A stretch of DNA of 64,000 bases, taken from the NCBI GenBank assembly GCA_029582265.1, contig CM055823.1, positions 29,293,560 to 29,357,559 of the forward strand, in the 5' to 3' direction. Source of the DNA: Zoroaster sp. YZ-2022. Lineage: Eukaryota; Echinodermata; Asteroidea; Forcipulatida; Zoroasteridae. The translations under genes and the position numbers were made by a program. The notes under the pieces were generated by a model. The model made no database searches. It was not told the DNA's origin and was given only the letters and a program-made list of their open reading frames with translations. This document shows positions 2,706-61,960 of the stretch, piece by piece (position 1 is the stretch's first letter; each line of letters starts with the position of its first letter).

Positions 2706-2759
2706 TCTCAAATTAGAATGAAATCAATCTCAGTGCCTTGAAATAGGAAGTTACTCAAT

Positions 2760-3420: not shown

Positions 3421-4281
3421 TGCTGGAATGACCCATGTACATGTAGTTTTAATTTGATGGCCAGCAATTTTTTGTCATAATTGAATATAATGTACTATTT
3501 GATATTGAATGCATGAGTTATGTAGATTATCAAGTAATAAAAAAACATAAATGTTTGCACATCCATACACGTTGTAAAAATATTTTGAGTTCCTGTCTCA
3601 TCTAACAAGTTACCACCGTAAGGTACGTTGTACACGTAAATGTCTACACTAATGATGTAATTATGGGTAAGTATCACGATACTCTACACGTTTGTGTGTA
3701 CCACATAAACAGTGCCATACATGTAGGTCATGTACATGTATCTAGTACAGGGTAATCACATTATGTCGACAGGAAACTGATGCATTGGATTGTACCACGG
3801 TCACAGAGAAGTAAGCCATCAGGACTACTGGTCGGATGGATGGCATAGTAATCACGGAAAGATTATTAATTTTAAAAGGAAATCAAATAATGCCATCATT
3901 TACTGAATACAAGCCAGAGGCAACTGTAATGAAGGATAGCAAAGAGCTTCACAAAATTCACAATTTGCCAATCAAATTTCAAGATTTGCTAGTCAAAATT
4001 TTACATTATAAATACATGTACATGCAGAGATGCCAATATTTTTACGATTTGGGCGTAATTTTTACGATTTATTGAGTCCAATTACGATTGTACGATCCTT
4101 GTATCAATTTTGGCCAGTCACAAACCAACGATGTAAAGAACCACATGTGTTTACGGCACGCGCACCGTAGTTCATCAGCTGTTTACATGACCAAAACCTT
4201 TCGTTAGGCGAATTACCCTTTTTCAATTTGGAATGTTGGCATCTCTGTACATGTACTGTACTGTAAAAAATAGTTTTGTCT
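3421..4281. other. non-genic stretch
   Basis: No gene is recognised. The ORFs at 3495-3677 and 3836-4075 show no domain or splice support. The only notable feature is more ACATGTA palindromes, plus a segment near 3890-4010 (CACAATTTGCCAATCAAAT) that is weakly repeated at 10640-10700 and 42790-42830, so it is probably a dispersed repeat. Confidence 0.5.
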
Positions 4282-4631
4282 TTAACCCTTCTGTGACTGC
4301 AAGGGTCAAAATCAGTCAAAATGTTCATGTACATTGTACGTGTACTTGCCAGGGTATGTAGTCCATTTGTGTAAAAGTCAAACACTGTCAAACCTCATGT
4401 GTAGTAATGTACATGTACAGGTCAAAATGTGTCAACTGTTTTTGACTGGTAAAAGCATTGACCTTGTGTTGTTGCGGGTGGTCAAAATGACAGTCAAAAC
4501 CAGTCAAAAATGCCCCTGTGTGCACATTTGGGTCAATGTTCAGTCAAAAGAGTCAGTTGACTGATTTTGACCACTATACATGTAGCTACATGTACATGCC
4601 ACTAAATTTCAGCTATAGTAGGAGGGTTAAA
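4282..4631. mobile_element. TTAA-flanked MITE, CCCTTCTGTGACTGCAAGGG subfamily
   Basis: TTAA at 4282-4285 and 4628-4631 flanks about 342 bp that begins CCCTTCTGTGACTGCAAGGG and ends AGCTATAGTAGGAGGG. The interior is rich in GTCAAAA repeats. Sister copies lie at 5654-5981, 11132-11454 and 59812-60127. The TTAA target and CCCT...AGGG ends indicate a piggyBac-like non-autonomous element. Confidence 0.8.
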
Positions 4632-5164
4632 CAAATATTGCTTTAAGATGTAAATTTGTTTTTATTAAATTATTTCCTGTCCAGACCTGGGTTTGAATAC
4701 ATGTACATATGTCAAAGCGAATTCAAATTAAATTTTCAAATAAATGCAAATTACGAATACAAATACTCTATGACAGATTGGTTTCAGTAGACGCTTGATA
4801 AACTAATGTCCGGATGCATGTACAGACATTTTGCCAGTGGTATACAATTCCTCTAACTCAACAAGCATGTGGTAATTAATTGGCATACATGTATGTACAT
4901 GAATTGCCTATTGAATGAATCTGAGCATGACTCAAGTCAACATATTGTACACGTATGTTTTGATGACTTATTTATGTGTCACCATTCGGCGAGATGTCAT
5001 ATAGATTATGTACGTGTACCAAAGTTGAAGAACTTGTACTTTTTTCTGTACTCATACTCATAACTCATGAAACAGTTATTGAGTACACCTCTAGAGTTAA
5101 GTACTCATACATGTACATGTACTTGTATAAGTTTGAGTTAATTTTTTTATCATAATTGTGCTCG

Positions 5165-5561
5165 TTAACCCTCTTATAAAAATTGCAGTTTTGGGCCTAG
5201 AAACTGCACCTTTCAAAACCTGTCAGCCGGAGGGTTTTGAAAGGTTATGTAGTTGCTTCGCTATGCACTGCACTGGCAGGTTTTATACTACCACATGTAC
5301 TATACATACATGTACATGTAGTTTGTGTACATGTACATAACTGTTTACTGAACTTACAGACTTACATACATGTAGCTTACTTTATGACTTAGTATCAGCA
5401 CCTTTCAAAACCCTCCAAACCCTCCAAAGGGTTTTGGCATGTGGATGTACTTACTATACAAGTGTTACGACATGCATTGGCAGGTTAATGCTGTGGGCCC
5501 TATGCTTATTACACAGTGCAAATTTGACAGGTTTTGGCATTTACAGTAACAGGAGGGTTAA
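5165..5561. mobile_element. TTAA-flanked MITE, CCCTCTTATAAA subfamily
   Basis: TTAA (5165-5168) followed by CCCTCTTATAAA opens the element, and AACAGGAGGG followed by TTAA (5558-5561) closes it. Inside, CCTTTCAAAACC and GGGTTTTGAAAGG occur in both orientations, so the element can fold. It has no coding capacity. Confidence 0.7.
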
Positions 5562-5653
5562 AAAAGGACTATAATACATGTAATTGGAGTAGTCATACTT
5601 GTTACGTACATATGTACTCGTTCATTCTTTTTACTGTACCCGTACTCTTATTC

Positions 5654-5981
5654 ATAACCCTTCTGTGACTGCAAGGGTAAAAACCGTCAAAATGTTGATA
5701 TACATGTACTTGCCAAGATATACATTATCAAGTGCAATTAAAAGTTGAACGCTGCCAAAACTTACGTGTTACCGGTTAAAATGAGTCTACCGTTTTTGAC
5801 GAGTAAAAGCAGTGTCTGGTGTTGTTCAGGGTGGTCAAAATGACAGTAAAAACCAGTCAGTAAATGCCACCTGTGTTCACATTTGGGTCAACAGTCAAAA
5901 CAGGCAGTTGACTGATTTTGACCTCTACAGCTACATGTACATGTACTTGCCCCTAGAGTGCAGCTATAGTAGGAAGGTTAA
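5654..5981. mobile_element. TTAA-type MITE, CCCTTCTGTGACTGCAAGGG subfamily
   Basis: This is a close relative of the 4282-4631 copy, with the same CCCTTCTGTGACTGCAAGGG start and CTATAGTAGGAAGG end. The right flank is TTAA and the left flank is ATAA, a one-base change of the target duplication. Confidence 0.75.
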
Positions 5982-6279
5982 AAAAATACTCAACTCATCC
6001 TCTGGATTTGAAGTACTCATAATACATGTACTCGTGTATATTTTTCTGTCATATTGGTACTCAAATGGTAGTTCAAAATGTGTGTATACTCACGAAAAAG
6101 TACAGTGTACTCAACGACATGTGTACACGTCTGATGTGTGTACATGTACATTATTCACTTTGTACAGTAAGACAAATAATACAGCTTACATGTATTTAAT
6201 CACATACATGTGTACACGTCTGATGTCCACTTTGTACAGTAAGACAAATAATACAGCTTATAATCACATACATCTATAC

Positions 6280-8197
6280 CAGTGTTTTAGCCAGGATTTG
6301 GTAAAGTGGGAGTGCAAAAAAAAAAAGTGGGAGTGCAACTTATTGGAGTCCAAAATTTGTGTGCGATCGAAGCACACAACAGGAGAGCGCAAAGTCCCTC
6401 ACGGTCGAAGCCAGAGCTTCCAGGGTCCTTAAGCGGGTCCTGGAAGCTCTGGCTATTTTAGATGCTCTCTGGGGGTCTCTAGTGCATTTCTGATACCCGT
6501 TTTTCAGGTAGAAATGAGCTAATTTGGTTAGATTTTTTCCTTTAAAAAAACAAAAAAACATGATCCTCAGGACCAAAATCAGAATCTTCTTGGATGTCTT
6601 GTACATGTACATCCCTATTCTCGTCTTGAACTGTGGCCTTATTCTGAAATGAAATTGAAAGTAGCTACAGCTGTCAAAATGTTCCTAAAGATATTTTTAC
6701 CTAAGTGGGCCTAATCTGAATAATTGTAGTCACTGTGATGTTTGATAATATATAATCTCTAAGAATAGAACATTAAATAAATTGAGATCACAAGAAAGTT
6801 TTTAAGAAAGTTTGTTAACACAATATATTTGGAAATGCGTATGCCACGAAACTAGTATTTATACCAGCAAGTGTTTATTATATATATAAAAAAAGGTTAC
6901 ATTTTTAAAATGAAATTATGTTTCGATGTATTTTAATATAAAATGTAATTTAATGTCAGTTTATAGTATTAAACCACAGCTATGTCAATTAGTTATGTAA
7001 ATGAGAATATGACACAAATGTTTTCTTTGACAAATCACTACAATTTTTAATTATATTTTTTTAAAGAAAAAAAATTAATGTACGTGCATATGAATGAACC
7101 TTTGTATTTTTTCAGATTTTCTTCAATTTGCCATTTTGTTTGAAGTACATTGAGGTGTTATGTGACTAGATCAAGTTTACTATTTTTTGCACACGGCGCC
7201 CGGGCGCATATAATACGTATAAGCCCTCTGCGCTATTTACAGCGCTATTTACAGTGCCCCATCACAGCGCGCGCACGTCGCACGTGCACACACGTCGTAG
7301 TCGTACACACACAAACATAAACAGTCCGACCATGCAATGTACAATGTACATACACCACGAGTCGACGAACGATGTGGTATGCACATTGACATGTTTTTGA
7401 CATGTGAGATCGGTCTTCAATTCTTATGATTTTAGATTTGCCAGTGGATTTATGTATTATATTATGAGGTGTTGTTCTTTAACAAGGTAATTTTCTGATC
7501 AGTTGATTTCGGCAGAATGATGGCAAAATTCTGATGCCAATTCCGATCAAGTTCATGAAACTCTCATCATCCCACATGACATGGCATTTGTTAAACAAAA
7601 CAGTATGGACGTTGAGCAACACAACCCAAATTTGGTAGGCCTCACCACTGCATTGTACCCCAAAGTATTTTGATTGTACATGTTGTAAGTTAAACGTGAC
7701 AATTTTGCTCTTACCTTTGTGAAGAAGTCTGTTATTTTTCCCTTTTGGCCGACATGATGTAACTGACGCTTCTGACTAAATCAAGTCTATGAACACGGAC
7801 TGGTTCCCTGCTTCGTTGTGCACATGTAAATACAGAGTTGATTTTATACCAACACGTGTACCAGACTAAAGTCGGACTACAAGCGTGACAAGTCAATCGA
7901 GACTCCGCCAGCGTGAACGGAGGTGAAAAACTGGTGAAATTAAATTTATCTGCGTTACGTCTTTTATGTTTTAAATTGTCCACAAGAAAAAGAAAACTTC
8001 AAAGTTAACAAAAATTGTTTTCATAAAATAAAATCACAAATTATTGACATGCATTTCTCTTTTACTGAAATAGATTTTCTAAAATATTTTAGCACGGCTT
8101 CGATTTAAAAATACAAGCCGTGCTTGAAAATATAGCCCGTGTTTTTTTTTAACTGGCCGTGCTAAAAGGCCTGCACGGCTCGCTGGCTAAAACACTG
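6280..8197 (-). mobile_element. non-autonomous hAT-like transposon
   Basis: The ends CAGTGTTTTAGCCAG (6280) and CTGGCTAAAACACTG (to 8197) are perfect inverted repeats of 15 bp. The 9-bp direct repeat CATCTATAC sits immediately outside both (6271-6279 and 8198-8206), which marks the target-site duplication. hAT elements usually give 8 bp, so the ninth base may be chance. The right half, read on the minus strand, matches the element that starts at 63183, including its first exon. A perfect 16-17-bp hairpin (AGCCAGAGCTTCCAGG and its complement, 6409-6453) lies near the left end. The copy is about 1.9 kb, too short for a full transposase. Confidence 0.75.
7715..7755 (-). pseudogene. broken first exon of hAT-like transposase
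   Basis: On the minus strand ATGTCGGCCAAAAGG begins at 7755 and ends at a GTAAGA donor at 7715. It corresponds to the 43-nt exon at 63651-63693, which reads MSAKRGKITDFFNK. Here the exon is 41 nt, with a G missing after the AAAAGG stretch and a further base lost near the donor, so the frame meets TAA after MSAKREK. A start with basic residues followed by ITDFF is typical of hAT transposase N-termini. This copy cannot encode protein. Confidence 0.6.
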
Positions 8198-8288
8198 CAT
8201 CTATACATGTACAATATCATGGATCTTTAAACTTGCTTTTCCTTAAAGTTGATAAGGAGCTACATGTACACACAACAGATTTAATAAT

Positions 8289-8683
8289 TTAACCCTAACC
8301 TTCCCAAATCCTCCAAAAGCCTCCAAAATCCTCTTTGCTAAAGTGAAGGATTTTGAAGGATTGAGGTTACATGCTACATTGTACATGCTCTTTGCTAAAG
8401 TGAAGGATTTTGGAGGATTGAGGTTATTAGGCATACTTGCCTTTCCATGGTACATGTACATCCATGTTTGTTGTAGTGATTGCAAGGTCAGTGCTTAGGT
8501 CAGTGGACACAGTTTATTGCTCCATGCATGCAGGGAGGGTCCCTGGCCATGTACATGTACAGCACATGTATCACAGATTAGAAACACATGTGTGCATACA
8601 TGTCATGTGCTTGCTTTACTACTGAAGGATTTTGGAGTATTCAGGTTATGTGTAAGCAAATGGGCCTAGGGAGTTAGGGTTAA
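8289..8683. mobile_element. TTAA-flanked MITE, CCCTAACC subfamily
   Basis: TTAA-CCCTAACCTTCCCAAATCC opens it (8289) and GGGAGTTAGGG-TTAA closes it (8683). Inside, GTGAAGGATTTTGGAGGATT is repeated. An inverted copy of the same element lies at 58055-58404 and shares the central segment around CCATGCATGCAGGGAGGGTC. There is no ORF of interest. Confidence 0.8.
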
Positions 8684-8689
8684 TGAAAC

Positions 8690-9466
8690 TTATAAAACGC
8701 CATCTATCTAGAAACCTAATCCGAGGTGCTGGTGATAATGAAAAAGACACAAAGATATATGGAACATTAGATAAGCAAAGTACATGAAACAAAATGCACA
8801 AAATTAACATTCATTATAAGCATGCACAAAAAGGTGAGTTTTCAAACGTTTTTTGAAAGAATTAAAATTGTCACACAGTCTTAAACTTGTGGAAGCATAT
8901 TCCAAAGAGAAGGAGCTGCAACAGAAAAAAGCCCTATCCCCAAAAGTTTTACAAGTTCCATGTGGTACAGTAAGGAAGTTTTGGTTTGCTGAGCGTAGTC
9001 CACTGCGATTAGAGTTGTGAATGGTAAGAAGATCTTGAATATATACAATGTATGAAGGTGAGTTGCCATGTCGAGCTTTCCATGTAAGAAGACATATATA
9101 TTATATCTTGAAAACTATCCGTTGTTGAACTGGGAGCCAGTGTAATTGCTTCAGTGAGGATGTTATGTGATCTGACTTATGAATCATAAATATAGTCCTT
9201 GCCGCAGCATTTTGGATTAATTGAAGTCTGTGAATGAGGTTTTTAGGTATTCCATAGAGCAAAGCATTACCACAATCCAAACGAGATGATATGAAAGCAT
9301 GAATCAATTTCTCAGTACTCTCTTTTGACAGAAGTTTGCGTATACTGTTAATATTCCGGAGATGAAAATAACCAGTTTGACAAATTTTATTAACATATGA
9401 TTTCATGGACATTTCGTCATCAAAAACAATACCAAGATTGCGAGCTTTGGAATTAGCCATGTACAT
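8690..9466 (-). mobile_element. CR1/L2-like LINE ORF2 3' fragment
   Basis: The minus-strand frame 9466-9101 reads ARNLGIVFDDEMSMKSYVNK, then LNSI-type sequence, HAFISSRLDCGNALLYGIP, IQNAAARTIF and LHWLPVQQRIVFKI. This is the thumb and C-terminal part of a CR1/L2/Jockey-type reverse transcriptase. After one frame change it continues at 9069-8881 to FSVAAPSLWNMLPQV and a stop, the usual ORF2 end. The copy is 5'-truncated at about 9466 and frameshifted, so it is dead. Confidence 0.85.
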
Positions 9467-12982: not shown

Positions 12983-14275
12983 AATCCTGAAAATGGGTTG
13001 AGTGCCTGGGTCTCCCTTTGGTCTAGAGGACAAAGCCCCCTGAACCTCCTGTGGGTAGCAGGCCTGGGTCTCCCTTTGGTCTAGAGGACAAAGTCCCCTG
13101 AACCTCCTGTGGGTAGCAGGCCTGGGTCTCCCTTTGGTCTAGAGGACAAAGCCCCTGAACCTCCTGTGGGTAGCAGGGCCTGGGTCTCCCTTTTGGTCTA
13201 GAGGACAAAGCCCCTGAACCTCCTGTGGGTAGCGGGCCTGGGTCCCTTTGGTCTAGATGACAAAGCCCCCTGTACCTCCTGTGGGTAGCGGGCCTGGGTC
13301 TCCCTTTGGTCTAGAGGACAAAGCCCCCCTGAACCTCCTGTGGGTAGCGGGCCTGGGTCTCCCTTTGGTCTAGAGGACAAAGCCCCCTGAACCTCCTGTG
13401 GGTAGCGGGCCTGGGTCTCCCTTTGGTCTAGAGGACAAAGCCCCTGAACCTCCTGTGGGTAGTGGCTGGGTCTCCTTTGATCTAGAGGATAAAGCCCTGA
13501 ACCTCCTGTGGGTAGCGGGCCTGGGTCTCCCTTTGGTCTAGAGGACAAAGCCCCTGAACCTCCTGTGGGTAGCGGGCCTGGGTCTCCTTGGTCTAGAGGA
13601 CAAAGCCCCTGAACCTCCTGTGGGTATGCGGGCCTGGGTCTCCCTTTGGTCTAGAGGACAAAGCCACCCTGAACCTCCTGTGGGTAGCGGGCCTGGGTCT
13701 CCCTTTGGTCTGGAGGACAAAGCCCCCCTGAACCTCCTGTGGGTAGCAGGCCTGGGTCTCCCTTTGGTCTGGAGGACAAAGGCCCCCTGACCCTCCTGTG
13801 GGTAGTGGGCCTGGGTCTCCCTTGGTCTGGAGGACAAAGCCCCTGAACCTCCTGTGGGTGGCGGGCCTGGGTATCCCCTTTGGTCTGGAGGACAAAGCCC
13901 CCTGAACCTCCTGTGGGTAGCGGGCCTGGGTCTCCCTTTGGTCTAGAGGACAAAGCCCCCTGAACCTCCTGTGGGTAGCGGGCCTGGGTCTCCCTTTGGT
14001 CTAGAGGACAAAGCCCCCTGAACCTCCTGTGGGTAGCGGGCCTGGGTCTCCCTTTGGTCTGGAGGACAAAGCCCCCTGAACCTCCTGGATTTTTAACTCT
14101 GGAGGATTTACAGACTCTCCACATCCCCACAAACAAAAAACTAGAGGTTTGGACACAATACAGGCTACTTCTTTCTTTCCTTGGTGGCTACTTCTCTTCT
14201 TTCAAGAAAAATCTGAGGCAAAGGGAGATTTATAAAAAATCCTGAAATCATGAAAAATCCTGAGAAATCACAGGC
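12983..14275 (+). mobile_element. repeat unit carrying the 58-bp minisatellite, copy 1
   Basis: The unit starts near AAAAATCCTGAAAATGGG and contains about 19 tandem copies of a ~58-bp repeat (13008-14090). A fixed flank then follows: TGGAGGATTTACAGACTCTC, CACATCCCCACAAACAA and AGGCTACTTCTTTC, ending near AAAATCCTGAAATCATG. The same flank follows the array at 61441-61780 and, inverted, borders the array at 31555-32620. An array-plus-flank unit at several loci behaves like a mobile element with an internal minisatellite. Confidence 0.65.
13008..14090. repeat. 58-bp minisatellite array
   Basis: About 19 copies of GGGCCTGGGTCTCCCTTTGG / TCTAGAGGACAAAGCC / CCTGAACCTCCTGTGGGTAG are present, with 1-3-bp length variation. 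Open minus-strand frames (repeating DQRETQARYPQEVQG and PRPATHRRFRG) arise only because the unit lacks stops. The copies here are far cleaner than those of the same repeat at 30.4-32.6 kb. Confidence 0.95.
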
Positions 14276-30244: not shown

Positions 30245-30388
30245 TGTCAGAGAGAGAAAAACAGAAGTTTTCAGTTTTCTGTTTGTTTATTTTTAGTTTT
30301 GTTTGTTTGCTTTTATGTTTGTTATTTGGTTTGTTTGTTGTCTGTTTGTTTGTTGTCTGTAGAGCATGTAGCATGTATTGTGATTCAG
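30245..30388. other. intron start, TTTG-rich
   Basis: A TGTTTGTTTG-rich low-complexity stretch (30275-30360) follows the exon. ORFs here (FVCLLLCLLF) are artefacts. Confidence 0.5.
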
Positions 30389-30830
30389 GGGGTTTGGTCC
30401 GGCTAGACCAAAGGGAGACCCAGGCCTGCTACTCCACAGGAGGTCCATAGTGGGCTGGTCCTGCTAGACCAAAGGGAGACCCAGCCCGCCAAGTACTCCA
30501 CAGTGAGTGTCCAGGGGGCTTTGGTCCCGCTAGACCAAAAGGGGAGACCCAGGCCTCAAGCTACCCACAGGAGGTCCAGGGGCTTTGTCCTGCTAGACCA
30601 AAAGGGAGACCCAGGCTCATACCCACAGGAGGTTCAGGGGCTTTGTCCGCTAGGACCAAAGGGGAGACCCAGGCCTGCTACCCACAGGAGGTTCAGGGGT
30701 TTTCTTTGGTCCTTCTAGGACCAAAGGGAGCATCCCAGGCTCCATGCTGGGCCCACAGGTGAGGTTCAGGGGGCTTTTGTCCGCTAGGACCAAAAGGGAG
30801 ACCCAGGCCCACTACTCCTTTTTTCAGGAT
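30389..30830. repeat. 58-bp minisatellite array, inverted, error-rich copy 2
   Basis: About seven copies of the same unit as 13008-14090 appear in reverse orientation (CTAGACCAAAGGGAGACCCA, GGCCTGCTACCCACAGGAGG, TTCAGGGGGCTTTGTCC). Almost every copy carries unique 1-2-base insertions or deletions, unlike the clean array at 13 kb. The array sits in a ZNF143 intron. Confidence 0.85.
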
Positions 30831-31554: not shown

Positions 31555-32640
31555 TCTTCAGGATTTTTCCCTGATTTTACTAACTTCTCTCCCTTTGCCT
31601 CAAAACTCATAAGCATGAATGAACAGAAGTAGCCACTCAAGGAAAGAAAAGAAGTAGTAGTCCTCGTTTTGGTGTCCAAACCTCTAGTTTCCCTGTGTGG
31701 GATGTGGAGAGTCTTGTAAATCCTTAAAATTAAACATGGTCTCCAGGAGGTTCAGGGGCTTTGCCTTCCCCTCTAGACCAAAGGGACAACCCCCAGGCCT
31801 TGCTACCCACAGTAGGTGGAGGTTCAGGGAACCTTGCCCTCTCAGACCCCAAAGGGAGACCCAGGCTCAAGTACCCACAGGAGGTTCAGGGAGCTTGCCT
31901 CTAGACAGACAAAGGAGACCCAGGCCCGCTTACCCACAGGAGGTTCAGGGCTTTTGCCCTCTAGACCAAAGGCAAGGGAGACCCAGGCTGCCACCTACCC
32001 ACAGGAGGTTCAGGGAGCTTTGTCCCTAGATCAAAAGGGAGACCCAGGCCGCACACCCACAGGAGGTTAGGGTCTTTGTCCCCAGGACCAAAGGGAGACC
32101 CAGGCCTGCTGCCACCACCCACAGGAGGTTCAGGGCTCTTGGTCCCTCTAGACCAAAGGTAGACCCAGGCCATACACCACAGGAGGTTCAGGGGCTTTGT
32201 CCTCTCTACACCAAAGGGAGACCCAGGCCCCTACCCACAGGTGAGGTTCAGGGGGGCTTTGGTCCTCTTCAGACCAAAGGGAGACCCAGGCCTGCTACCC
32301 ACAGGAGGTTCTAGGGGGCTTTTGTCCTCTAGACCAAATGGAGATCCAGGCCTGCTACCCACAGGAGGTGTCTAGGGGGGCTTTGTCCTTTGTCCTAGGA
32401 CCAAAGGAGAGACCCAGGCCTGCTACTCCACAGGAGGTTCAGGGGCTTGTGCCCTCTAGACCAAAGGGAGACCCAGTCCCCCGCTACCCACAGGAGGTTC
32501 AGGGGGCTTTGTCCCCAGACCAAAGTGGGAGACCCAGGCAGGCCCTCACCCACAGGAGGTTCTAGGGCTTTGTCCTCCAGAAAAAAGGAGACCCTAGTCC
32601 CACACTTACATCATCCACATATTTCAGGATTTGATTTTAC
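31555..32640 (-). mobile_element. 58-bp-minisatellite element, inverted copy 3
   Basis: Read in reverse, this is the same unit as 12983-14275. Its flank is at 31555-31735 (AGTAGCCACTCAAGGAAAGA, GGTGTCCAAACCTCTAG, TGGGATGTGGAGAGTC) and about 15 array copies fill 31740-32605. The far edge is TATTTCAGGATTTG. Indels are frequent in the array. It lies in the ZNF143 intron between the finger 3 and finger 4 exons. Confidence 0.75.
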
Positions 32641-38693: not shown

Positions 38694-39164
38694 TTAACCC
38701 CATAGTCATTTTCACTAGAAACCTCCTGAATACACCAAAATCAATCGATATGAACTAAATGTCACCCAGTTGTTGGACTTTGATGGAATTGGTACAGTGG
38801 CAAATGCAAAGCATCCATGGCTTGGCTATACACAGTCCTGAATCCAACAAAAGCAGCCGGTGGAGTTTGATGGATTTGGTACACATGGCTACATGGTCTA
38901 TTCACTCATTATACTGTGGAGTACTGAATCCAACAAAAGCAGCCGGTGGAGTTTGATGGATTTGGTACACATGGCTACATGGTCTATTCGCTGGGCTATA
39001 CTGTGGAGTACTGAATCCAACAAAAGCAGCCTGTGGAGTTTGATGGATTTGGTACACATTGCTACATGCTCTATTCACTGGGCTATACTGTGGAGTACTG
39101 AATCCATCGAAGATGGATTAAGGAAATCATTTATAATTGATGAATTTGGGGTAATCAGGGTTAA
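38694..39164. mobile_element. TTAA MITE with 3-4 units of the 87-bp repeat
   Basis: TTAACCCCATAGTCATTTTC opens it and GGGGTAATCAGGGTTAA closes it. Inside are tandem units of 87 bp (GAGTTTGATGGATTTGGTAC, ACATGGCTACATGGTCTATT, CTGTGGAGTACTGAATCC). The same unit, inverted and expanded to about 12 copies, fills the element at 40811-42061. Confidence 0.75.
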
Positions 39165-40470
39165 GCTTGGGCGATAATACGATAATATTGAATATCGCGA
39201 TACCTTTTTTTATTCGATTATGATATCAACCACCTTTTCAAGTTATTGCAATGTATGTTTGGCTATTATATCGTGATGAATTTTTTTATATCATCCAAGC
39301 TTAATTAGGGTTTATTTGTCCTGCTCCATTTATCTTGAGAATAGAAATAAAATGTAATATCGATATCATCCAAGCTTAACTAGGGTTTATTTGTCCGCTC
39401 CATTTATCTTTGGAGAATAGAAATAAATGTAATATCGATATCAACCAAGCTAACTAGGGTTTATTTGTCCGCTCCATTTATCTTGAGAATAGAAATAAAT
39501 GTAATATCGATATCAACCAAGCTTAATTAGGGTTTATTTGTCCGCTCCATTTATCTGGAGAATAGAAATAAATGTAATATCGATATCAACCAAGCTTAAT
39601 TAGGCTTATTTGTCCGCTCCATTTATCTGGAGAATAGAACAAATGTAATATCGATATCAACCAAGCTTTAATTAGGGTTTATTTGTCCGCTCCATTTATC
39701 TGGAGAATAGAAATAAATGTAACATCGATATCAACCAAGCTAATAATTAGGTTTATTTGTCCGCTCCATTTATCTGGAGAATAGAAATAAATGTAATATC
39801 GATATCATCCAAGCTAATTAGGGTTTATTTGTCCGCTCCATTTATCTGGAGAATAGAAATAAAATGTAATATCGACATCATCCAAGCTTAATTAGGGTTT
39901 ATTTGTCCGCTCCATTTATCTGGAGAATAGAAATAAATGTAATATCGATATCATCGGGCTTTTCAAGCTTATTAGGTTTATTTGTCCGCTCCATTTATCT
40001 GGAGAATAGAAATAAATGTAATATCGATATCAACCAAGCTTAATTAGGGTTTATTTGTCCGCTCCATTTATCTGGAGAATAGAAATAAATGTAATATCGA
40101 TATCAACCAAGCTTAATTAGGGTTTATTTGTCCGCTCCATTTATCTGGAGAGAATAGAAATAAATGTACATCGATATCAACCAAGCTTAATTAGGGTTTA
40201 TTTGTCCGCTCCATTTATCTGGAGAATAGAAATAAATGTAATATCGATATCAACCAAGCTTAATTAGGGTTTATTTGTCCGCCTCTGCTTATCTGGAGAA
40301 TAGAAATAAAATGTAATATCGATATCAACCAAGCTTAATTAGGGTTTATTTGTCCGTTCTTTCATCTGGAGAATAGAAATAAATGTAATATCGATATCAA
40401 CCAAGCTTAATTAGGGTTTATTTGTCCGTCTGCTTATCTGGAGAATAGAAATAAATGTAATATCGAATTG
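39165..40470. repeat. ~73-bp satellite-like array with GATATC ends
   Basis: It begins with the GCTTGGGCGATAATACGATA end of the CTTGGGCGATA MITE. From about 39290, some 16-17 copies follow of TAATTAGGGTTTATTTGTCC, GCTCCATTTATCTGGAGAAT, AGAAATAAATGTAATATCG and ATATCAACCAAGCT. The array seems to have expanded from inside the MITE, and its far end was not found. Copies differ by small indels and a few substitutions. Confidence 0.9.
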
Positions 40471-40810: not shown

Positions 40811-42061
40811 CCATCCTAACTACCCCAAATCCTCCAAACCCTTCTGGTTTTGCCTGATTTTATGGATTCAGTACTCCACAGTATAGCCCAGTGAATAGAG
40901 TACAGAAACATGTGTACCCAAATCCATCAAACTCCACCGGCTGCTTTTGTTGGATTCAGGCACTACAGTATAGCCCAGTGAATAGACCATGTAGCCATGT
41001 GTACCAAATTCATCAAACTCCACCGGCTGCTTTTGTTGGATTCAGTACTCCACAGTATAGCCCAGTGAATAGAACATGTAGCCATGTGTACCAAATCCAT
41101 CAAACTCCACCGGCTGCTTTTGTTGGATTCAGTACTCCACAGTATAGCCCAGTGAATAGAACATGTAGCCATGTGTACCAAATCCATCAAACTCCACCGG
41201 CTGCTTTTGTTGGATTCAGTACTCCACAGTATAGCCCAGTGAATAGACCATGTAGCCATGTGTACCAAATCCATCAAACTCCACCGGCTGCTTTTGTTGG
41301 ATTCAGTACTCCACAGTATAGCCCAGTGAATAGACCATGTAGCCATGTGTACCAAATCCATCAAACTCCACAGGCTGCTTTTCTTGGATTCAGTACTCCA
41401 CAGTATAGCCCAGTGAATAGACCATGTAGGCATGTGTACCAAATCCATCAAACTCCACAGGCTGCTTTTCTTGGATTCAGTACTCCACAGTATAGCCCAG
41501 TGAATAGACCATGTAGCCACAGGTACCAAATCCATCAAACTCCACAGGCTGCTTTTGTTGGATTCAGTACTCCACAGTATAGCCCAGCGAATAGACCATG
41601 TAGCCATGTGTACCAAATTCATCAAACTCCACCGGCTGCTTTTGATGGATTCAGTACTCCACAGTATAGCCCAGTGAATAGACCATGTAGCCATGTGTAC
41701 CAAATCCATCAAACTCCACCGGCTGCTTTTGATGGATTCAGTACTCCACAGTATAGCCCAGTGAATAGAGCATGTAGCCATGTGTACCAAATCCATCAAA
41801 CTCCACAGGCTGCTTTTGTTGGATTCAGTACTCCACAGTATAGCCCAGTGAATAGAGCATGTAGCCATGTGTACCAAATCCATCAAACTCCACCGGCTGC
41901 TTTTGTTAGATTCAGGACTGTGTATAGCCAAGCCATGGATGCTTTGCATTTGCCACTGTACCAATTCCATCAAAGTCCAACAATCGGGGTACCTTTTTAT
42001 TGCATGTTTATGGAGGATTTAGGATGGTTTATAACCAGAAACCCTAGGGGGTTAGTGTTAA
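40811..42061. mobile_element. TTAA-type MITE inflated by an 87-bp minisatellite
   Basis: The left end (CCTAACTACCCCAAATCCTC) lacks a clean TTAA, while the right end (CCCTAGGGGGTTAGTG-TTAA) has it. Between them about 12 copies of an 87-bp unit (29 codons) are so regular that both strands stay open: 433 codons on + (repeating YSPVNRPCSHVYQIHQTPP) and 336 on - (repeating SSRWSLMDLVHMAT). No promoter, splice or domain evidence supports a protein. It is the inverted, expanded relative of the 38694-39164 element. Confidence 0.8.
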
Positions 42062-45921: not shown

Positions 45922-46482
45922 CTAGAAGTGAAGTTGATTGGTAGCTGAGGAGGGTTGTTTACATACCGATACTCTTTTTGTTGTACATTTTGCATCTGCC
46001 CACAAGCTGAAGTCCCCTATATTGGTAGGGTTTATGTACATAATGATGCAGATCTCATCCCCACTGTTGTTGGGGTCTCCTGATACCCAAGTCTGATTAT
46101 AGCTGGGCCGATCGGTGTCATCTCCAGAGCAATTCCAACTGGTACTGCTGTTTCCTTCCATCCTACAGTTAATCCAAGACGCTGTCACCGATGGGTATAT
46201 CACCTTTGTCTTAAGAAAATTTGCTAAGAAATCATTTTCCATCTGGGAGCGAGGTGCTGCCATGGTTGCCCCCAGTTCTTCACAGAATTTTCTGGCTTCG
46301 TCCCATACCTTCTTGTCCTTGTTGACCGTATAGCATGATGATCCCCATGGCTGCCAGCTATGTGGACAGCCTCGGCTCGCAACTGAAGCCCGGCAGTTAC
46401 CAGAAACCAGCAGAAATGGCGGGGAAATCACAGCGATGATCATAGCTAGGGTGAAGTACGTCTGTGAGTTCATCATCATCAC
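45922..46482 (-). CDS. secreted single-domain C-type lectin
   Basis: This intact 186-codon frame has a start of four Met, a hydrophobic signal peptide (TLAMIIAVISPPFLLVSG, residues 11-28) and one C-type lectin-like domain (about 39-176). Landmarks are GCPHSW (C39), SSCY (C50), A-KFCEELGA (C67), WVSGDPNNSGDEIC (132-145), WADAKC (161-166) and VSVCKQ (C174). Standard pairs would be C39-C50, C67-C174 and C145-C166, and C106-C118 may form an extra bond. The sugar-specificity tripeptide is DPN instead of EPN/QPD and WND is WAD, so Ca2+-dependent sugar binding is uncertain. N-glycosylation sequons occur at N111, N117, N129 and N138. The gene is intronless, and an A-rich run follows the stop within 10 bases. 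Such lectins are abundant in echinoderm immunity. It is the only complete gene in the window. Confidence 0.92.
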   Translation of the reverse strand: MMMMNSQTYFTLAMIIAVISPPFLLVSGNCRASVASRGCPHSWQPWGSSCYTVNKDKKVWDEARKFCEELGATMAAPRSQMENDFLANFLKTKVIYPSVTASWINCRMEGNSSTSWNCSGDDTDRPSYNQTWVSGDPNNSGDEICIIMYINPTNIGDFSLWADAKCTTKRVSVCKQPSSATNQLHF

Positions 46483-46489
46483 AGCGGTT

Positions 46490-49382
46490 ACTGCTGAACG
46501 TTATTAACAGAAATGTTTGAGGCTGCGGGCTTGAGGATAAATCGAATTGTTAAACTGCGTTTTAAAGTTGACAATATTTTATCTTGACTTTCAACACATA
46601 AAGCATAACAGCTTTCAATTGTCAACTGTTCACGAATGTCTGTTTTTGTAAATCAATCAAATAAAGTACTATAAGCTGTTGCAAATTACAAAGAAGTAAT
46701 AAGTTTCAAGTTTCGCTCATAGCAGATCGAGTCTTTACCACTTGTAAATCACTTATAAATATTGCTTTAAAAACAACACTGAAAAGTACAATAGTAATTG
46801 ACCGTCGGTGCTACCGCTCACTACAAAATGGCAGGCCTGGCCTATGTCCAAATCGACGGAGAGAAAGGCTGGCTGTGGAGCAGTTACGTCCGTCGCAATA
46901 TTTTGCAGAATTCCGTTCCGAGTCGTATGTGACGTTTCAGGTGACTGATGGCTAAGCAGGAACACTTTGCTCTGATGTTATACTCAAAGAATTTCGAGTA
47001 GGCTTCGACAACAGAATTTATATAATATTGTCTGGAACTTGACCTGAAGAAAACAGGCGCACAAAACGATATCTTCGTTGCTGGCCCGAATCCATCTATT
47101 GGCGGCAACTCCCCACAGTTTAACCCAAATGCAATACCAGTCGCTCCCCACCACACAAATCACAATGAAATATCCAGAATATGATCAGCCTATCATTTTA
47201 GAGCAAAACATCCATCTAGCCTGTAAATCAAACGGCATTGAATAACCAATAATATTAAGTCATGCATTTCCATGACGATGGTGTTGATCACGGGCGCGCT
47301 TGATGTTATACAGGTGTCGAATTTTGCGGCGTTGCTATGGGTGGGCGGGGACTAGCTATGGCCAAATCTAGCTGGTTTATGCATGTCGACAGCAATACAA
47401 GCTGTTTCTTATGTATTTGCGCAATTGTTTAAATTCATACCTCTGGAAGCGTTTATTTGAAAGTGCGAGGGGTGGTTTCCTGTTTCCAAAATAAGGAGAC
47501 TCATGATTAGGCCTAAGTTCAAAATAATTATACAACCCCCAATATAAAGAGCAGGCAAATATTATGGCCCCGACTTCAAGATACTTCATAATCCAACCTG
47601 CTCCCCAACCCATATTTAAAATGCATGGCAACTACACTAGTTAAATAATGGAACTGCCTGTCAAATCAAGGCGTGGATTGGCCAACGTTTATAGCCATGC
47701 GTTTTACACATACATCAACCCAATAATCCATGAGTATTTCAGACGATCGATGGAAGTGAAATTAATGCGTGGCATGATATGTGCAACCTGTACAAAGCCC
47801 GTTTCGTTAATTTTTGCCCGACTGTAATTCAAGTAATTTTCAGGACAGCCCATTATCTTATCATTATACGAGGATGATGGATGTTTTGATTAATAGGAAA
47901 TTACATGGCTTTTAAGATCCTAAAAAAATAGATAAATTATAATACAATTTTCAAGGTAAAATCGGCCATGAGCATGAAACATTAATCTTAGAATTAATGG
48001 ATGTTCATTAAAAGCCGTTTGATAATGTTTTCCCTTTCACATAATAATACTATTAATATTATAATATTGTTGGTATATATTGTTTTCAGTAGTTCTTTTT
48101 GATGTATTTCTGAACGCACCGCCGGGTAGGCGTGTGCCACTGTTTTAAAAGTGTATGTTCAAATAAATAAATAAATAAATAATAGGAATGAGAAATTGAT
48201 GGCATACTTAACAGAGGTAAACCTTTAGAAGTGCCATGATGAATAGGCCATTAGGCCTTGGCTCATGTCATCTCTCCTAGGGGAAACAATTACATTACTC
48301 TTGATATTAACAAATTACCTAATTATTATCTGACAGTTAGCCCGGTGGTGTTGGTCGTTGGGTGTCCGTCTAGCAGTTTCCTTTCTGTTTTGTCCCCCAC
48401 AAAGGCTGGTTTATATATACAGGGTTTTTTATGTGTAAAAGATGATGACTCTCATCAGAGTTGCAAGACGGGAAATTTTTGTTTGAAATAATTTCTGATG
48501 TAAATGCCTTTTTTTTTTCACTTGTATATTTTTATGCATACTCAAAGTACAAGCAGACGAATAGAGGCAGTTTTGTCAACATTGCCAATGCTGTACCTTC
48601 CCTTTAATACATTTCGAAATCTGTTAAAGTGTTCCGAATAATTATGAGAAGCCGTTTGTATCATTAATACACAGAGACTTCATTTCTGCATATTTAAGCA
48701 TTATATTAACCCATTAAAGATGTTCTCCGCTACACATTGTTAACGACAGGATAAATGCACCAGTTCCGCCGACTCAATTTTACCCCGTGTTCCAAGAGGC
48801 AAGAAGGGAAGAAAGAACCAATAATTATGTCAACCCCGAGTCCCAATTCTCGGAAGAATATATCAAAATGTCAGACAAAGGCAAGTTTTGATGAGTTTTC
48901 CAATTGGAAATGCCAGAAGGCCTTCGTTTATTTATATTGCAGCAATCTAATAACACAAACGTTAACATTTTCAGGCTTCCCAGTGCCTAATCTACCAAAT
49001 ACAGGTTTTTTAAAATAGGTTTTAAAAGCAAAATATAGGTTATTATAGGTTTAAATGCCAAAAATATAGGCTTTTATAGGTTATTTCTTGTGATTATGCA
49101 GTGTTAGTAACAAGTTTTTGGTAAATTGCTCACCTTCGAGTACTTTTGCAACAAAGTACATTACCCCATAACCTGTCCAGCAGAAAATCTAAGAGCGGCG
49201 CACATGTTACAGTTTGGCTACTGTTTTGGCTTCATCTCTTTATACTTAAGAAGCAATTTTTCTTCAAAGCCATGAGGATTTTATGAGGAAGTTGAAAATG
49301 TGTTGCAGGAGATTTAAAAATATTGGTTTTTATAGGTTAATATAGGTTTTTGGGTGAAATAAACGTTCCCACTAGTTTTGAA
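46490..49382. other. mostly unannotatable intergenic DNA
   Basis: No gene is recognised. The ORFs at 46753-46965, 46884-47156 and 47377-47631 (-) and 48258-48491 and 48755-49018 (+) lack domains. AATAAATAAATAAATAATAG at 48164-48184 may be a retroposon tail. TATAGGTTATTATAGGTTTA at 49030-49090 and TTTTTATAGGTTAATATAGG at 49326-49348 look like the two ends of a hAT-type MITE. Confidence 0.5.
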
Positions 49383-51515: not shown

Positions 51516-51544
51516 ACGATCATATGGTGTTCTATAATGGACAC

Positions 51545-51810
51545 CTACGCGGCGCCTTTTTTTTTCTACGCGGCGACTTTTTTTTTTTACGCGGCGACTT
51601 TTTGTTTTTGGGCGGCGACTTTTTGTTTTTGGACGGCGACTTTTTTTTTACGCGGCGACTTTTTGTTTTTGGACGGCGAGTTTTTTTTTTACGCGGCGAC
51701 TTTTTGGTTTTGGACGGCGACTTTTTTTTTTTACGCGGCGACTTTTTGTTTTTGGGCGGCGACTTTTTTTTTTTACGCGGCGACTTTTTGTTTTTGGGCG
51801 GCGACTTCCG
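51545..51810. repeat. tandem GCGGCGACTTTTT units in left TIR
   Basis: Units of 19-22 bp alternate between an ACGCGGCGAC type followed by T8-10 and a GGGCGGCGAC/GGACGGCGAC type followed by TTTTTGTTTTT. Open frames in both directions (FFFLRGDF, SPRKKKKS) are artefacts of the unit. Confidence 0.9.
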
Positions 51811-51975
51811 GGTTGTTGAGTGTTTAGGGATTCCCGTACTCACGCGCATGCGCTGATAATAGTGGCTACTTCCGCATTTGTACTCGACTGCATGGCAGCA
51901 AATGCATGACTGCAGTGGTATACTATATACTCATGAGAGTGGTGATTCAAGTTTCTTTTGTAAATATTACTGAGG

Positions 51976-52235
51976 TACGGTAACACCATGTGATTATCCA
52001 CTCTAGCTACTACTAATAGTTCTTAAAATAAATTATCTAACTTAAGTAGATAAGGGATCGGGGAATGATGCTAGTCAAAACGTTGAGACCACTTAGCGAC
52101 ATATCTCACTTAGCGACAGTGAAGATAATTACAAGAAGTCCCCCCATCCCTTATCTACTTAGCGACAGTAGATTAGCATGATAAATTCTTTCAAGAACTA
52201 TTCTGCTAGAGTAGATAATCACATGGTGTTACCGC
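51976..52235. mobile_element. GGTAACACCATGTGATTATC MITE
   Basis: CGGTAACACCATGTGATTAT opens it and ATAATCACATGGTGTTACCG closes it, with further pairing of CTCTAGC...AATAGTTCTT and AAGAACTATT...GCTAGAG. It lies inside the 4-kb TIR element. Confidence 0.8.
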
Positions 52236-53123
52236 AAACCAAAATCCTATAAATCTTTCATTACTGAGGGTGTTAACAAATTTATAAAAAAGTAGATATG
52301 GAGTATAATCTGATTGTGCAATGAACTTTTTAAGTCTTTAACGAGGTTAAACTTCAAATATGAACAGTAACACACTTTGGAACTAAAAACATTTTTAATA
52401 TATGTGTTAGAATGTGTACAAACATTATGTGAGAATACTGTGATAAAATCACGAACACTAACAATAAAATGGTTATATGTAGGCCTATACTGCATACATA
52501 TAGATTAGAAAATACCCTTTCATACTTTTTTCATGATTGAAAGGCACGTTTTACATACAGTACACACAAACTTATTTTATGACAACTGTGAAATTACACG
52601 CTTTCACCCTTGTTGATGAATACTGGCTTATTAACTGGCTTCCCCAATTGTCGTAATAAGGCACATGGGATCAAGTTATTTCAGATCCCTTCTATGTAAT
52701 TACAGTCAAAGATTACTTCTGGACATCATCACTTAAAAATAAAAGTATGCAGCATATCCATTTTTTAAACGAGTCCACATTAAAAAAAAAACTCCTTCAA
52801 ACAACCCCCCCCCCCCCCCCCCCCTTTACAACTGTAACCACAACAGTCTCTCTGTTATGAGAATAATGTTAGTTTGGTCCACTGAATTCATATTCCACAA
52901 TATGTATTCTATATTGTGCTATCTCTGAACTGGTGTAAAAATACAGAAACTTAACAAATAAACATCACACAAATAGTAACTCAGAACATGGACAGGATAT
53001 TTTTCTGGAAAATATAACCGTCAAGAAAAATAACAAAAACTGTAGGCCTATTAGCAAAGACGATGGTGATTATCGCACTGAAATTTAGGCAGTTAATGAT
53101 GATGGTTTAGATCTTTTATTATG

Positions 53124-53304
53124 TCATGCTATATTTTGCCAAAGCCATGGGCCTCGAACCGCATATTCCATCATATTCTGCAGCTCACTTGGATCATCAA
53201 CCCCTGGAATAATTTGTAAGTCATGTAGAACCCACAGGGTGGAATTGCGTTTGCTCCTGTCCAGAATTCAAGTACATTGGGGAGTGAGATCGCAGCTCGT
53301 CCAC
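53124..53304 (-). pseudogene. HECT-like last exon of the TIR-element gene
   Basis: A TTTATTTCAG acceptor (53305) starts a frame GRAAISLPNVLEFWTGANAI-PPCGF. After a 1-2-base shift DLQIIPGVDDPSELQNMMEY follows, with AVRGPWLWQNIA and a stop. AATAAA sits 7 bases later. VL-FWTG...IPP-GF is the HECT ubiquitin-ligase C-lobe pattern of the G2E3-like proteins that are multicopy in invertebrates, and LP...DDP..L...M..AV fits the end of that lobe. The segment with the catalytic Cys is missing between the two blocks. So this is a deleted, frameshifted remnant. Confidence 0.5.
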
Positions 53305-53977
53305 CTGAAATAAATTTATGAAATTTGTTATGATTAATGTTAGTCTCTTTCCACAGTATAGATTTAGAAATGTAGAACAACAGTCAGAGCTATAAACCTG
53401 AAACATGTAAAATAGTACAGTAATTTGCAATCCTTACTGTTGAAAAATAAAGTTTATACCAGGGCAGTCCAATATTTTTGGGGGATAATTCCGACTGACG
53501 AGGGGTTGGAAAAAGACCTCAGGGAGTCAGGTCCACCTTGCTCCCTTACGAACTCCTCGGAAAATGACACTTTGTGTAAGATTTTTGCATAGAAATACAC
53601 AAATGAAACAAAACAAACAAACCATCAAGGCCTATATTAAACAAACTTTGTAGAAAGAAGTCTTTTAGAACACTTCTTTACAGGATAAAATCCAATATTA
53701 ATTCACTTTATCTACTTCCAGGGTGGGGAACAAAATTTAATTTCCAAAGAGGAAATCGTTTTTATTAAACTTTAATAAATGATAACTTTGATAGAAAAGC
53801 AAAACCTTGAAATATTTCATACAATTAATTCATATGACTTTAAAATCATGAATGCAGCAGAGACAACACAAAGATTACAGTTGGTAAGGGTGAGAGTTGC
53901 TGTTAAAAGATAAAGTGCAGCTTTGGTGATTGCATGGTTAATTTATCCATTCCATCGAACACAGTAATCATACTTAC

Positions 53978-54089
53978 TGTCTATGCTCTCCTTGCATTTT
54001 TGTTTGATTCTGACTCAGTCTCCAACTTTGCAAACACCAAGTAACCCAAATTCGCATCTGTTAAACAAACGGCTTCTTTTTGGGCTGAC
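53978..54089 (-). pseudogene. possible internal exon of the TIR-element gene
   Basis: A TTTCATAG acceptor (54090) and a GACA-GTAAGTATG donor bound 112 nt. An open frame gives AQKEAVCLTDANLGYLVFAK and LETESESNKNARRA, but reaches TAG 4 bases before the donor. I do not recognise the domain. Confidence 0.35.
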
Positions 54090-54306
54090 CTATGAAACAA
54101 ATGTTGATACAGTGAACATTGGCAATAAACTTGGATGGAAAGAATTATTGTTTTAAGCCAGCACTGCATTCCCCAAAATGGCATCTGTGCCACCAATGTA
54201 CATATTTAAAAAATATACTACTTACTCTAATACTCCGCAATAAGAACAATGTCATTTTCTTCTGAAAGTCACCTTCTTAACCTTGAGACTAAGGAATCAC
54301 TTGACC

Positions 54307-54473
54307 TTAACCCTCAAAGAGCCAGGCTTTTATGACCTTCTCACCTCAGTCAGTCAAAATGTGGCTAAAAGGTCAGCCGAAAAGTCATAAAGCCTATAGG
54401 CTTAACATGGGGAAAAATGCACTGCCACATTATCACAATGGGGTGGATTCCGCCCTGGTTCTTTGAGGGTTAT
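54307..54473. mobile_element. short TTAA MITE (CCCTCAAAGAGCCAGG ends)
   Basis: TTAACCCTCAAAGAGCCAGG opens it and CCTGGTTCTTTGAGGGTTAT closes it, with about 18 bp of inverted repeat and a TTAA/TTAT target. At 167 bp it is the smallest clean member of the TTAACCCT...AGGGTTAA set. It interrupts the possible exon 54474-54610 of the surrounding element gene. Confidence 0.8.
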
Positions 54474-54610
54474 AGAACATTCCCAGAAACTGGCAGTAAC
54501 TTTTCCTCCCAATCTCATAACCATTCCATCTTTGTGTAGCCTCCGCCTCTTCCCTATTTCAAAGGTTTCAACAGAGCAACAGACCAGTGCCGGATTGTCA
54601 CCACTTCTAG
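54474..54610 (-). pseudogene. possible exon of the TIR-element gene, cut by a MITE
   Basis: After a GTTATCTAG acceptor the minus frame reads SGDNPALVCCSVETFEIGKR, RRLHKDGMVMRLGGKV and TASFWECS up to the MITE edge. No domain is recognised. Its 3' part is displaced by the 54307-54473 MITE. Confidence 0.35.
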
Positions 54611-54683
54611 ATAACAATAACAGTAGGCTAATCAACTTCAAGTGGAAAAAATACAGCTACACTTGGAAGAATGTGTGACTCAC

Positions 54684-54746
54684 CTGGTTCACTGCAAATG
54701 TATCTATTATGTGCTCCAAGCCGAGTGCTGATAGTATCTCATCCAT
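54684..54746 (-). CDS. SAM-like first coding exon of the TIR-element gene
   Basis: The minus strand has a CATACAG acceptor, AAAATGG start context and 21 codons, MDEILSALGLEHIIDTFAVNQ, to a CAG-GTGAGT donor. I-SALGLEH-ID-F is the start of a SAM-type five-helix domain as found at the N-terminus of several multicopy invertebrate proteins. The exon is intact, but downstream exons are broken. Confidence 0.5.
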
Positions 54747-55591
54747 TTTACTGTATGAAACATGAGGAATAATAACATAGCAGATTCACAAGTTACAATA
54801 TAGAGGGCGCACCCTCAGATATGCATTGTGCACACAAATTGCGACCAGTACAGACTACTTAATTTGGAATACTACTACTAGAGAAACACAAGGGAATATA
54901 ACCAAACAAAACAAAGGAGTGCAGGGTAGAGGTATTCTTGAAAAAAGGGATACACCACTAACTAGTAAACCTAATAAATAATATTTTATCATTATGGCCC
55001 GCCTTTGTTTTAATACAGGGCCACCAAACTTACAAATGAGGAAAATCATTCCCATCCCAGCAGCCAAGCAAACCCAAAGCCCTCTTTAGAATGAGAAACC
55101 AAAAGATTATTCTCATCAGAGCAACTTTAAATAATAAATGTTCATGATTAGCATTAACGTTAAACATGATTAGCATAATTTTGTATAGGCCTATAGTGCT
55201 TATCTCACCCCACAATATGTATAATCGTTAGTTGGGAACTATGGATTCATCGTATGCCATATGCTGTCGTTCAGACTACAAATGCGGAAGTAGATCAGTT
55301 AAGCGCATGCGTGAGTAACCTGTGCACGGGAATCCCTAAACACTCAACAACCCGGAAGTCGCCACCCAAAACAAAACGCCGCCAAAACAAAAAGTCGCAT
55401 TAAAAAAAAAAGTGGCATCCAAAAACAAAAAGTCGCCGCGTATATATAAAAAAAAAAGTTGCTGTCCAAAAACAAAAAGTCGCCGCGTAGAAAAAAAAGG
55501 CGCCGCGTAGGTGTCCATTATAGAACACCATACGATCAGAGCAGACTTTCAACACGGCATGGAATCGGTGTCCTAGTTTAACATAGTATTA

Positions 55592-61424: not shown

Positions 61425-61960
61425 CAAAAATCCTTTAAAAATGGGTAGCGGGCCTGGGTCTCCCTTTGGTCTAGAGGACAAAGCCCCTGAACCTCCTGTG
61501 GGTAGCGGGCCTGGGTCTCCTTGGTCTAGAGGGCAAAGCCCCCTGAACCTCCTGTGGGTAGTAAGCCTGGGTCTCCCTTTGGTCTAGAGGACAAAGCCCC
61601 TGAACCTCCTGTGGAGCGGGCCTGGGTCTCCCTTTGGTCTAGAGGACAAAGCCCCTGAACCTCCTGTGGGTAGTGGGCCTGGGTCTCCTTGGTCTAGAGG
61701 ACAAAGAACCCCTGAACCTCCTGTGGGTAGCAGGCCTGGGTCTCCCTTTGGTCTAGAGGGCAAAGCCCCTGAACCTCCTGGATGTTTAATTTTTGGAGGA
61801 TTTACAGACCTCCACATCCCCACAAACAATAAACTAAAGGTTTGGACACAATACAGGCTACATATTTCTTTCCTTGGTGGCTACTTCTCTTCTTTCAAGA
61901 AAATTTTGAGGCAAAGGAAGATTTGTAAAAAAAAATCCTAAAATCAGGAAAAATATAGAG
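61425..61960 (+). mobile_element. 58-bp-minisatellite element, copy 4
   Basis: Six tandem copies of the 58-bp unit (61441-61780) are followed by the same fixed flank as at 14.1 kb (TTTTGGAGGATTTACAGACC, CCACATCCCCACAAACAA, AGGCTACATATTTCTTTCC). It ends near AAATCCTAAAATCAGG. The copies are clean, like those at 13 kb. Confidence 0.85.

Follow-up and report, generated by a model that had tools for sequence, protein, structure and literature searches.

In the 64,000-nucleotide stretch of the Zoroaster sp. YZ-2022 genome analysed here (the window; contig CM055823.1, positions 29,293,560 to 29,357,559 of the forward strand), an element spanning 51523-55532 lies between inverted repeats. Sequence comparison with larger copies of this element elsewhere in the genome indicates that their common type, the parent, is very probably a cut-and-paste DNA transposon of IS3EU/GingerRoot type that carries one gene for an integrase and one for a ubiquitin ligase of SAM/HECT type. 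Judged by its alignment to the 15.7-16.0-kb parent, the window copy is a non-autonomous deletion derivative whose HECT gene is dead, as the middle HECT exons, the region of the catalytic cysteine and the integrase gene have been lost from it. It yields neither protein and could be mobilised only by enzymes that relatives provide.

Two larger copies were assembled from pairs of extracted loci. The copy read in L011 and L012 measured 15.7 kb end to end and that in L013 and L014 16.0 kb, and the two were 97.9% identical across 14.4 kb. In the full parent, a SAM/HECT gene on one strand and a multi-exon integrase gene on the opposite strand lie between inverted repeats built of bead-like units. The interior of the window element was collinear with the L011/L012 copy at 92-95% identity, with three losses. 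The first comprised parent positions 2717-8550 (5.8 kb) with the middle HECT exons; at its junction in the window (53618-53621), parent 2717 joins 8550 with a 4-base overlap. The second, of 72 bp (parent 8964-9037; at approximately 53207-53211 in the window), took the residues around the catalytic Cys571 and shifted the remainder into another frame. No match to HECT model residues 548-574 was found in the window, and the catalytic cysteine is absent from this copy; in the parent alignment, the C-lobe exon is left as a remnant of two halves in different frames (53151-53323, minus strand). The third loss extended from parent 10338 to about 15250 (4.9 kb) and removed the integrase gene, so that parent 10338 adjoins the left repeat at 51896-51901.

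A sequence-only reading of the window had described this element as enclosing a minus-strand HECT/SAM gene and no transposase. Comparison with the larger copies confirmed both the first exon, which is SAM-like, and the last, which corresponds to the HECT C-lobe. The first exon, MDEILSALGLEHIIDTFAVNQ followed by GTGAGT, was read directly and in these copies (54684-54746, minus strand), and comparison with them placed the second exon, with a SAM-like part, at 53981-54090 on the same strand (borders approximate). In the window, however, the gene has been gutted and its last exon broken by deletion. The transposase is indeed missing, the integrase having fallen within the 4.9-kb loss. A Pfam scan of the ten window pieces by themselves recognised neither HECT nor SAM. 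The same reading had suggested that a non-autonomous element captured a host gene here, and a HECT/SAM gene without transposase between repeats would fit such an event. However, the window pieces align to larger two-gene copies across clean deletion junctions, and these copies, with the same repeats, hold a multi-exon HECT gene beside a DDE integrase. We therefore rejected the window element as captor of host HECT pieces, an origin that is now scarcely credible.

The spliced integrase model of the parent matched PF24764 (E 1.2e-29); the gene is of DDE type and multi-exon. Alignment to 12 relatives showed D137 and D197 to be invariant and E237 nearly so, with a D197-E237 spacing of 39 residues. 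IS3EU/GingerRoot transposases are expected to lack an HHCC motif ahead of the core; none was seen by eye in the 316-residue model, the N-terminus of which is incomplete. The nearest database relative came from Patiria miniata (69% identity over 75% of the query).

The spliced HECT model matched PF00632 with E 7.3e-11, over the Pfam cut-off. The gene has a SAM-like start, a middle part common to two Patiria relatives and the HECT domain last. Its conserved C-lobe cysteine, Cys571 in the model, was invariant in comparison with three relatives. The parent gene thus encodes a predicted HECT-type ubiquitin ligase. Its nearest database relative was again from Patiria miniata (32% identity over 93% of the query). 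Protein searches returned one HECT protein in one case and three, including the query, in another, numbers probably limited by the word filter. The closest PDB match of the Patiria relative P0001 was AREL1, and the protein may also be G2E3-like. As in HECT ligases of the AREL1/G2E3 type, the parent protein has a HECT domain with an aligned catalytic cysteine; unlike them, it starts with a SAM-like part and is encoded on a multi-copy transposon, of which the window copy lacks the catalytic cysteine.

The borders of the window element were read directly. It opens with TATGGTGTTCTATAATGGACACC and closes with the reverse complement of this sequence, and CGATCA abuts both ends (51517-51522 and 55533-55538), with 6/6 bases matching between the sides. 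The proposal of a transposon between inverted repeats with a 6-bp CGATCA target duplication is thus confirmed, and the repeats proved to be multi-copy. The description of the repeats as perfect applies to their outermost 34 bases, which are identical between the ends; farther in, the end-to-end alignment revealed whole-bead gaps and scattered substitutions.

We searched the 1.0-Gb genome with the left repeat and obtained at least 94 matches, a lower bound with the best 40 of 470 candidates scored. The 32-base terminus gave 519 matches with up to three mismatches (266 on the plus and 253 on the minus strand), and the reversed control gave none. Terminal inverted repeats that occurred only here would have pointed to a local inversion; the genome-wide copies of the termini rule out this origin, and other repeat pairs enclose HECT/SAM exons as well. 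Among the first 100 terminus places listed, there were 25 inverted pairs at most 25 kb apart, of which 21 were shorter than 0.8 kb and had hardly any centre. The short copies among the listed pairs (approximately 0.16-0.8 kb in the family of the window element, family A, and approximately 0.8-3.3 kb in a second family, B, described below) are possible insertion markers.

For comparison, 20 genome stretches around such matches were extracted. Both ends were read in 13 copies of family A, and 10 of these had an exact 6-base duplication: CGATCA (window), CCATAT, GTTTTA, CCTACT, CTAGCA, ATTATA, GTAAAG, CTCCAT, CATTAA and GCGGAC. This count excludes L018, L024 and L026, in which one end only was read. 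A second end was sought in two further family-A copies (L022/L039 and L028/L038) and not found.

The ends, the 6-bp duplications and the type of integrase are consistent with the IS3EU/GingerRoot superfamily. According to two papers, IS3EU elements make 6-bp duplications and have ends of the form TA..TA, which read TAYGG..CCRTA in fungal members, and the fungal IS3EU elements described as bearing TET contain genes for an alpha-kinase and for TET/JBP (PMC10045372, PMC12730594). The authors of one of these papers consider that TET/JBP of fungal transposons likely help escape methylation; the terms HECT and ubiquitin occur in neither paper. In families A and B the ends are TATGG..CCATA, and 6-bp duplications were present in 10 of the 13 copies examined in A and in 9 of the 10 pairs examined in B. 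An integrase-like DDE transposase lies between the ends in the parent and was lost from the window copy. The element type, left open by the sequence-only reading, can thus be named from ends and duplication length. Like the fungal elements described there, ours combine TA..TA ends, 6-bp duplications and an integrase-like DDE transposase with an extra gene on the opposite strand; they differ in that this extra gene encodes a SAM/HECT ligase and in the long arrays of 21-bp beads that form their inverted repeats.

A literature search found HECT and IS3EU together in no paper; Repbase entries and the GingerRoot paper were outside its scope, so that earlier notice is possible. Nothing on point was found among the titles and abstract openings of the literature on HECT and transposons.

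Two other classes share some of these properties. Foldback and sea-urchin TU elements have 15-bp units and longer target duplications. The elements described here resemble them in their long inverted repeats of short tandem units and in short copies with hardly any centre, and differ from them in that the units measure 21 bp, the duplications 6 bp, and an integrase has been identified. Maverick/Polinton elements are virus-like and also make 6-bp duplications, and the large size and long inverted repeats of the parent would suit a Polinton or a derivative of one. Polinton ends, however, are of the AG/TC type, and those found here are TATGG. Apart from the bead repeats, no frame in L011-L014 exceeds 195 residues, which is too short for polymerase B. 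Polymerase, protease, ATPase and capsid families were absent from the frames of L011 (plus strand) and L012 (both strands), in a weak scan that missed the HECT exons too, and the integrase model matched PF24764, with PF00665 not reported for it. A Polinton origin is highly improbable.

We then asked how often the two genes are neighbours in this genome. A search with PF24764 gave at least 152 matches (best 150 of 709 candidates scored), and one with PF00632 at least 102 matches at E 1e-5 or better (best 129 of 253 candidates scored). After merging, 7 of 75 HECT places had an integrase place no more than 10 kb away, compared with 0.2 expected under uniform scatter, and all seven near pairs were on opposite strands. 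These pairs represent about four lineages and are not independent; their number is a minimum, given the low scores of spliced integrases. In all four loci chosen by HECT alone, drawn from two other multi-copy HECT groups, integrase exons were found opposite HECT within approximately 6 kb (L048 and L049, lineage B; L050 and L051, lineage C). L042 (D), L043 (E) and L044 (F) also showed both genes, having been chosen because hits of both were neighbours there. In L043 (2823-3177, 3195-8592), an intronless integrase frame of 320 residues lies opposite a SAM/HECT frame of 642 residues. This gene pair adjoins an array of 21-bp units, again the same unit length, with no inverted terminal repeat found. 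The stretch shared by the L043/L045 lineage halts on one side at a run of GA, and the search for an inverted repeat there gave none.

Family B has defined ends as well. Its terminus, TATGGAATTCCATA in L049 (the end in L048 differs by one base), matched the genome 217 times on the plus and 222 times on the minus strand, with no match for the control. Nine of the ten family-B pairs with flanks read had exact 6-base duplications, and a HECT match lies inside four of the nine (C4:34820144-34831821, C4:47880087-47891995, C2:44236861-44251340 and C1:71443865-71463479). In L048 and L049, whose HECT belongs to the same match group as that of the four enclosing pairs, the integrase was read opposite HECT and before the right terminus. 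The HECT gene is therefore not a one-off: six lineages in this genome have the gene pair. In two of these lineages the ends are defined, and one includes young copies. The ligase appears to be a regular component of these elements and not an accident.

Comparison between families indicated selection on both proteins. Integrase exons of A and B were 76-79% identical, and identity at codon positions 1/2/3 was 63/86/37% and 74/92/53% in two exon comparisons. For the HECT C-lobe, the corresponding values were 58/69/37% between A and B, 56/70/33% between A and D, 64/81/38% between B and D, and 41/53/25% between A and C. With codon position 2 kept and position 3 diverged, these data point to protein-level constraint on both HECT and integrase during family divergence. 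The active cysteine was present in HECT of all six lineages, A to F. Copies within family A, which are about 1% apart, drift after landing, like transposon copies generally; the ratio of nonsynonymous to synonymous differences (pN/pS) of their integrase was 0.86, and stops inside the counted exon codons were two, in L035 (HECT) and L024 (integrase).

These comparisons also bear on whether HECT is a neutral passenger, gained once by an ancestor and carried without function in transposition. The spread of short gene-free elements with the same ends (21 of the 25 listed inverted pairs below 0.8 kb) and the near-neutral pN/pS among copies would agree with a passenger. However, the spread of short copies is expected regardless, because they need the ends only. 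Moreover, the protein was kept across A, B and D (69-81% identity at second and 33-38% at third codon positions), and the active cysteine persists in A to F, although a passenger should decay as families diverge. We regard a passenger as rather unlikely, though more plausible than the other alternatives considered here.

Several observations weigh against an IS3EU-like transposon with a functional HECT gene. Three of the 13 family-A copies lack an exact duplication: L013/L014 (2/6 bases matching), L016 (4/6) and L023/L041. L016 is the inverted twin of the L015 insertion, approximately 60 kb apart, and the L023/L041 element has the same flank, inverted, on both sides; L015/L016 and L023/L041 are local inverted duplications around these elements. 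One of the ten family-B pairs has no matching duplication, and the integrase-bearing family-B copies (L048, L049) are different from the four duplication-flanked pairs that enclose HECT. Among the copies compared exon by exon (L011/L012 and L013/L014), no intact HECT frame was found; both show frame breaks relative to the model, some of which may reflect wrong exon borders. L023 is a further copy that spans the gene. The HECT pN/pS among family-A copies (0.94) is uninformative on HECT function, and a role for HECT is something that we infer. The IS3EU/GingerRoot assignment rests on ends, duplication length and transposase type.

Finally, no inverted repeats were found around the gene pair in D, E and F (L042-L044), and L042 also has reverse-transcriptase-like frames by eye, as might be seen if HECT and integrase had become adjacent through repeated nesting of unrelated repeats. 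Nesting is nevertheless very unlikely. Family A holds both genes inside its own ends with exact duplications (e.g. L011/L012 and L019/L036), four exact family-B pairs enclose HECT while two other B copies show the integrase opposite HECT, and the excess of near pairs, all on opposite strands, spans about four lineages, even if these are not independent.

For the IS3EU-like transposon, we propose the following mechanism. The integrase would bind the GGCGAC beads; 21 bp correspond to two helical turns, so that the sites would face the same way. The GGCGAC bead is common to the repeats of A and B, far above its occurrence in shuffled sequence, and its presence in two families with 76-79% identical integrase exons is as expected of a site at which the transposase binds. 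The integrase would cut at the TA ends and join them to target positions 6 bp apart, and short or internally deleted copies would move in trans with the integrase of full copies. For HECT, the most likely role, though with an even chance at best, is that of an accessory enzyme, analogous to the TET/JBP enzymes of fungal transposons; it would ubiquitinate either host silencing factors, to counter silencing, or the transposase, to tune it. More tentatively, a whole lineage of animal IS3EU elements could encode a dedicated HECT that co-evolved with the transposase and marks host silencers or surplus transposase for destruction; in marine animals, multi-copy HECT genes would then often belong to transposons.

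Accessory enzymes are a theme now emerging for transposons, TET/JBP and the alpha-kinase of fungal IS3EU being examples; with a ubiquitin ligase, protein degradation would become a further way in which a cut-and-paste element may deal with its host. It would also give a reason for the multi-copy state of such HECT genes in this genome, and gene catalogues may count transposon genes as host genes. The six paired lineages, among which two have defined ends and one has young copies, make the question testable in this genome.

The layout of the window element follows from direct reading, aligned ends and bead counts. Its left terminus (51523-51545, plus strand), of TAYGG type and an imperfect palindrome, was supported by genome matches in addition. 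The left outer domain (51546-51807, plus strand) consists of about 11 21-bp beads, GCGGCGAC-T(n); the tandem period of the outer domain is 21/42 bp. GGCGAC/GTCGCC occurred 11 times in the left repeat (shuffled mean 0.07) and only twice in the right (shuffled mean 0.01). Beads number approximately 11 on the left and three recognisable ones on the right of the window element, compared with 13 to 31 per end in larger copies. The aligned ends continue into an inner inverted-repeat domain of about 75-100 bases, on the left at 51808-51896 (plus strand; GACTTCCGGGTTGTTGAGTGTTTAGGGATTCCCG..., inner border approximate, the parent repeat match stopping at 51896) and on the right at 55258-55360 (minus strand, border approximate). 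The right outer bead domain (55361-55509, minus strand) is shorter and degenerate, and is followed by the right terminus GGTGTCCATTATAGAACACCATA (55510-55532, minus strand).

Inside the element, 51978-52234 is a self-complementary stretch with 30-bp arms (97%). The same self-match recurs in other family-A loci, e.g. L009, L012, L014, L017, L019-L022 and L025; the stretch is therefore either an old hairpin nested in the element or a small repeat nested there.

Elsewhere in the window, an 87-bp unit forms one array at 38834-39106 and, in reverse complement, a second at 40863-41919, flanking a 73/147-bp array at 39288-40466; judged by eye, together these arrays are possibly another fold-back element. 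A 57-60-bp minisatellite (GCCTGGGTCTCCCTTTGGTC...), apparently a single one by eye, occurs in both orientations at 13004-14087, 30384-30818, 31818-32594 and 61442-61780. A minus-strand open frame at 45922-46500 reads, by eye, like a C-type lectin domain.

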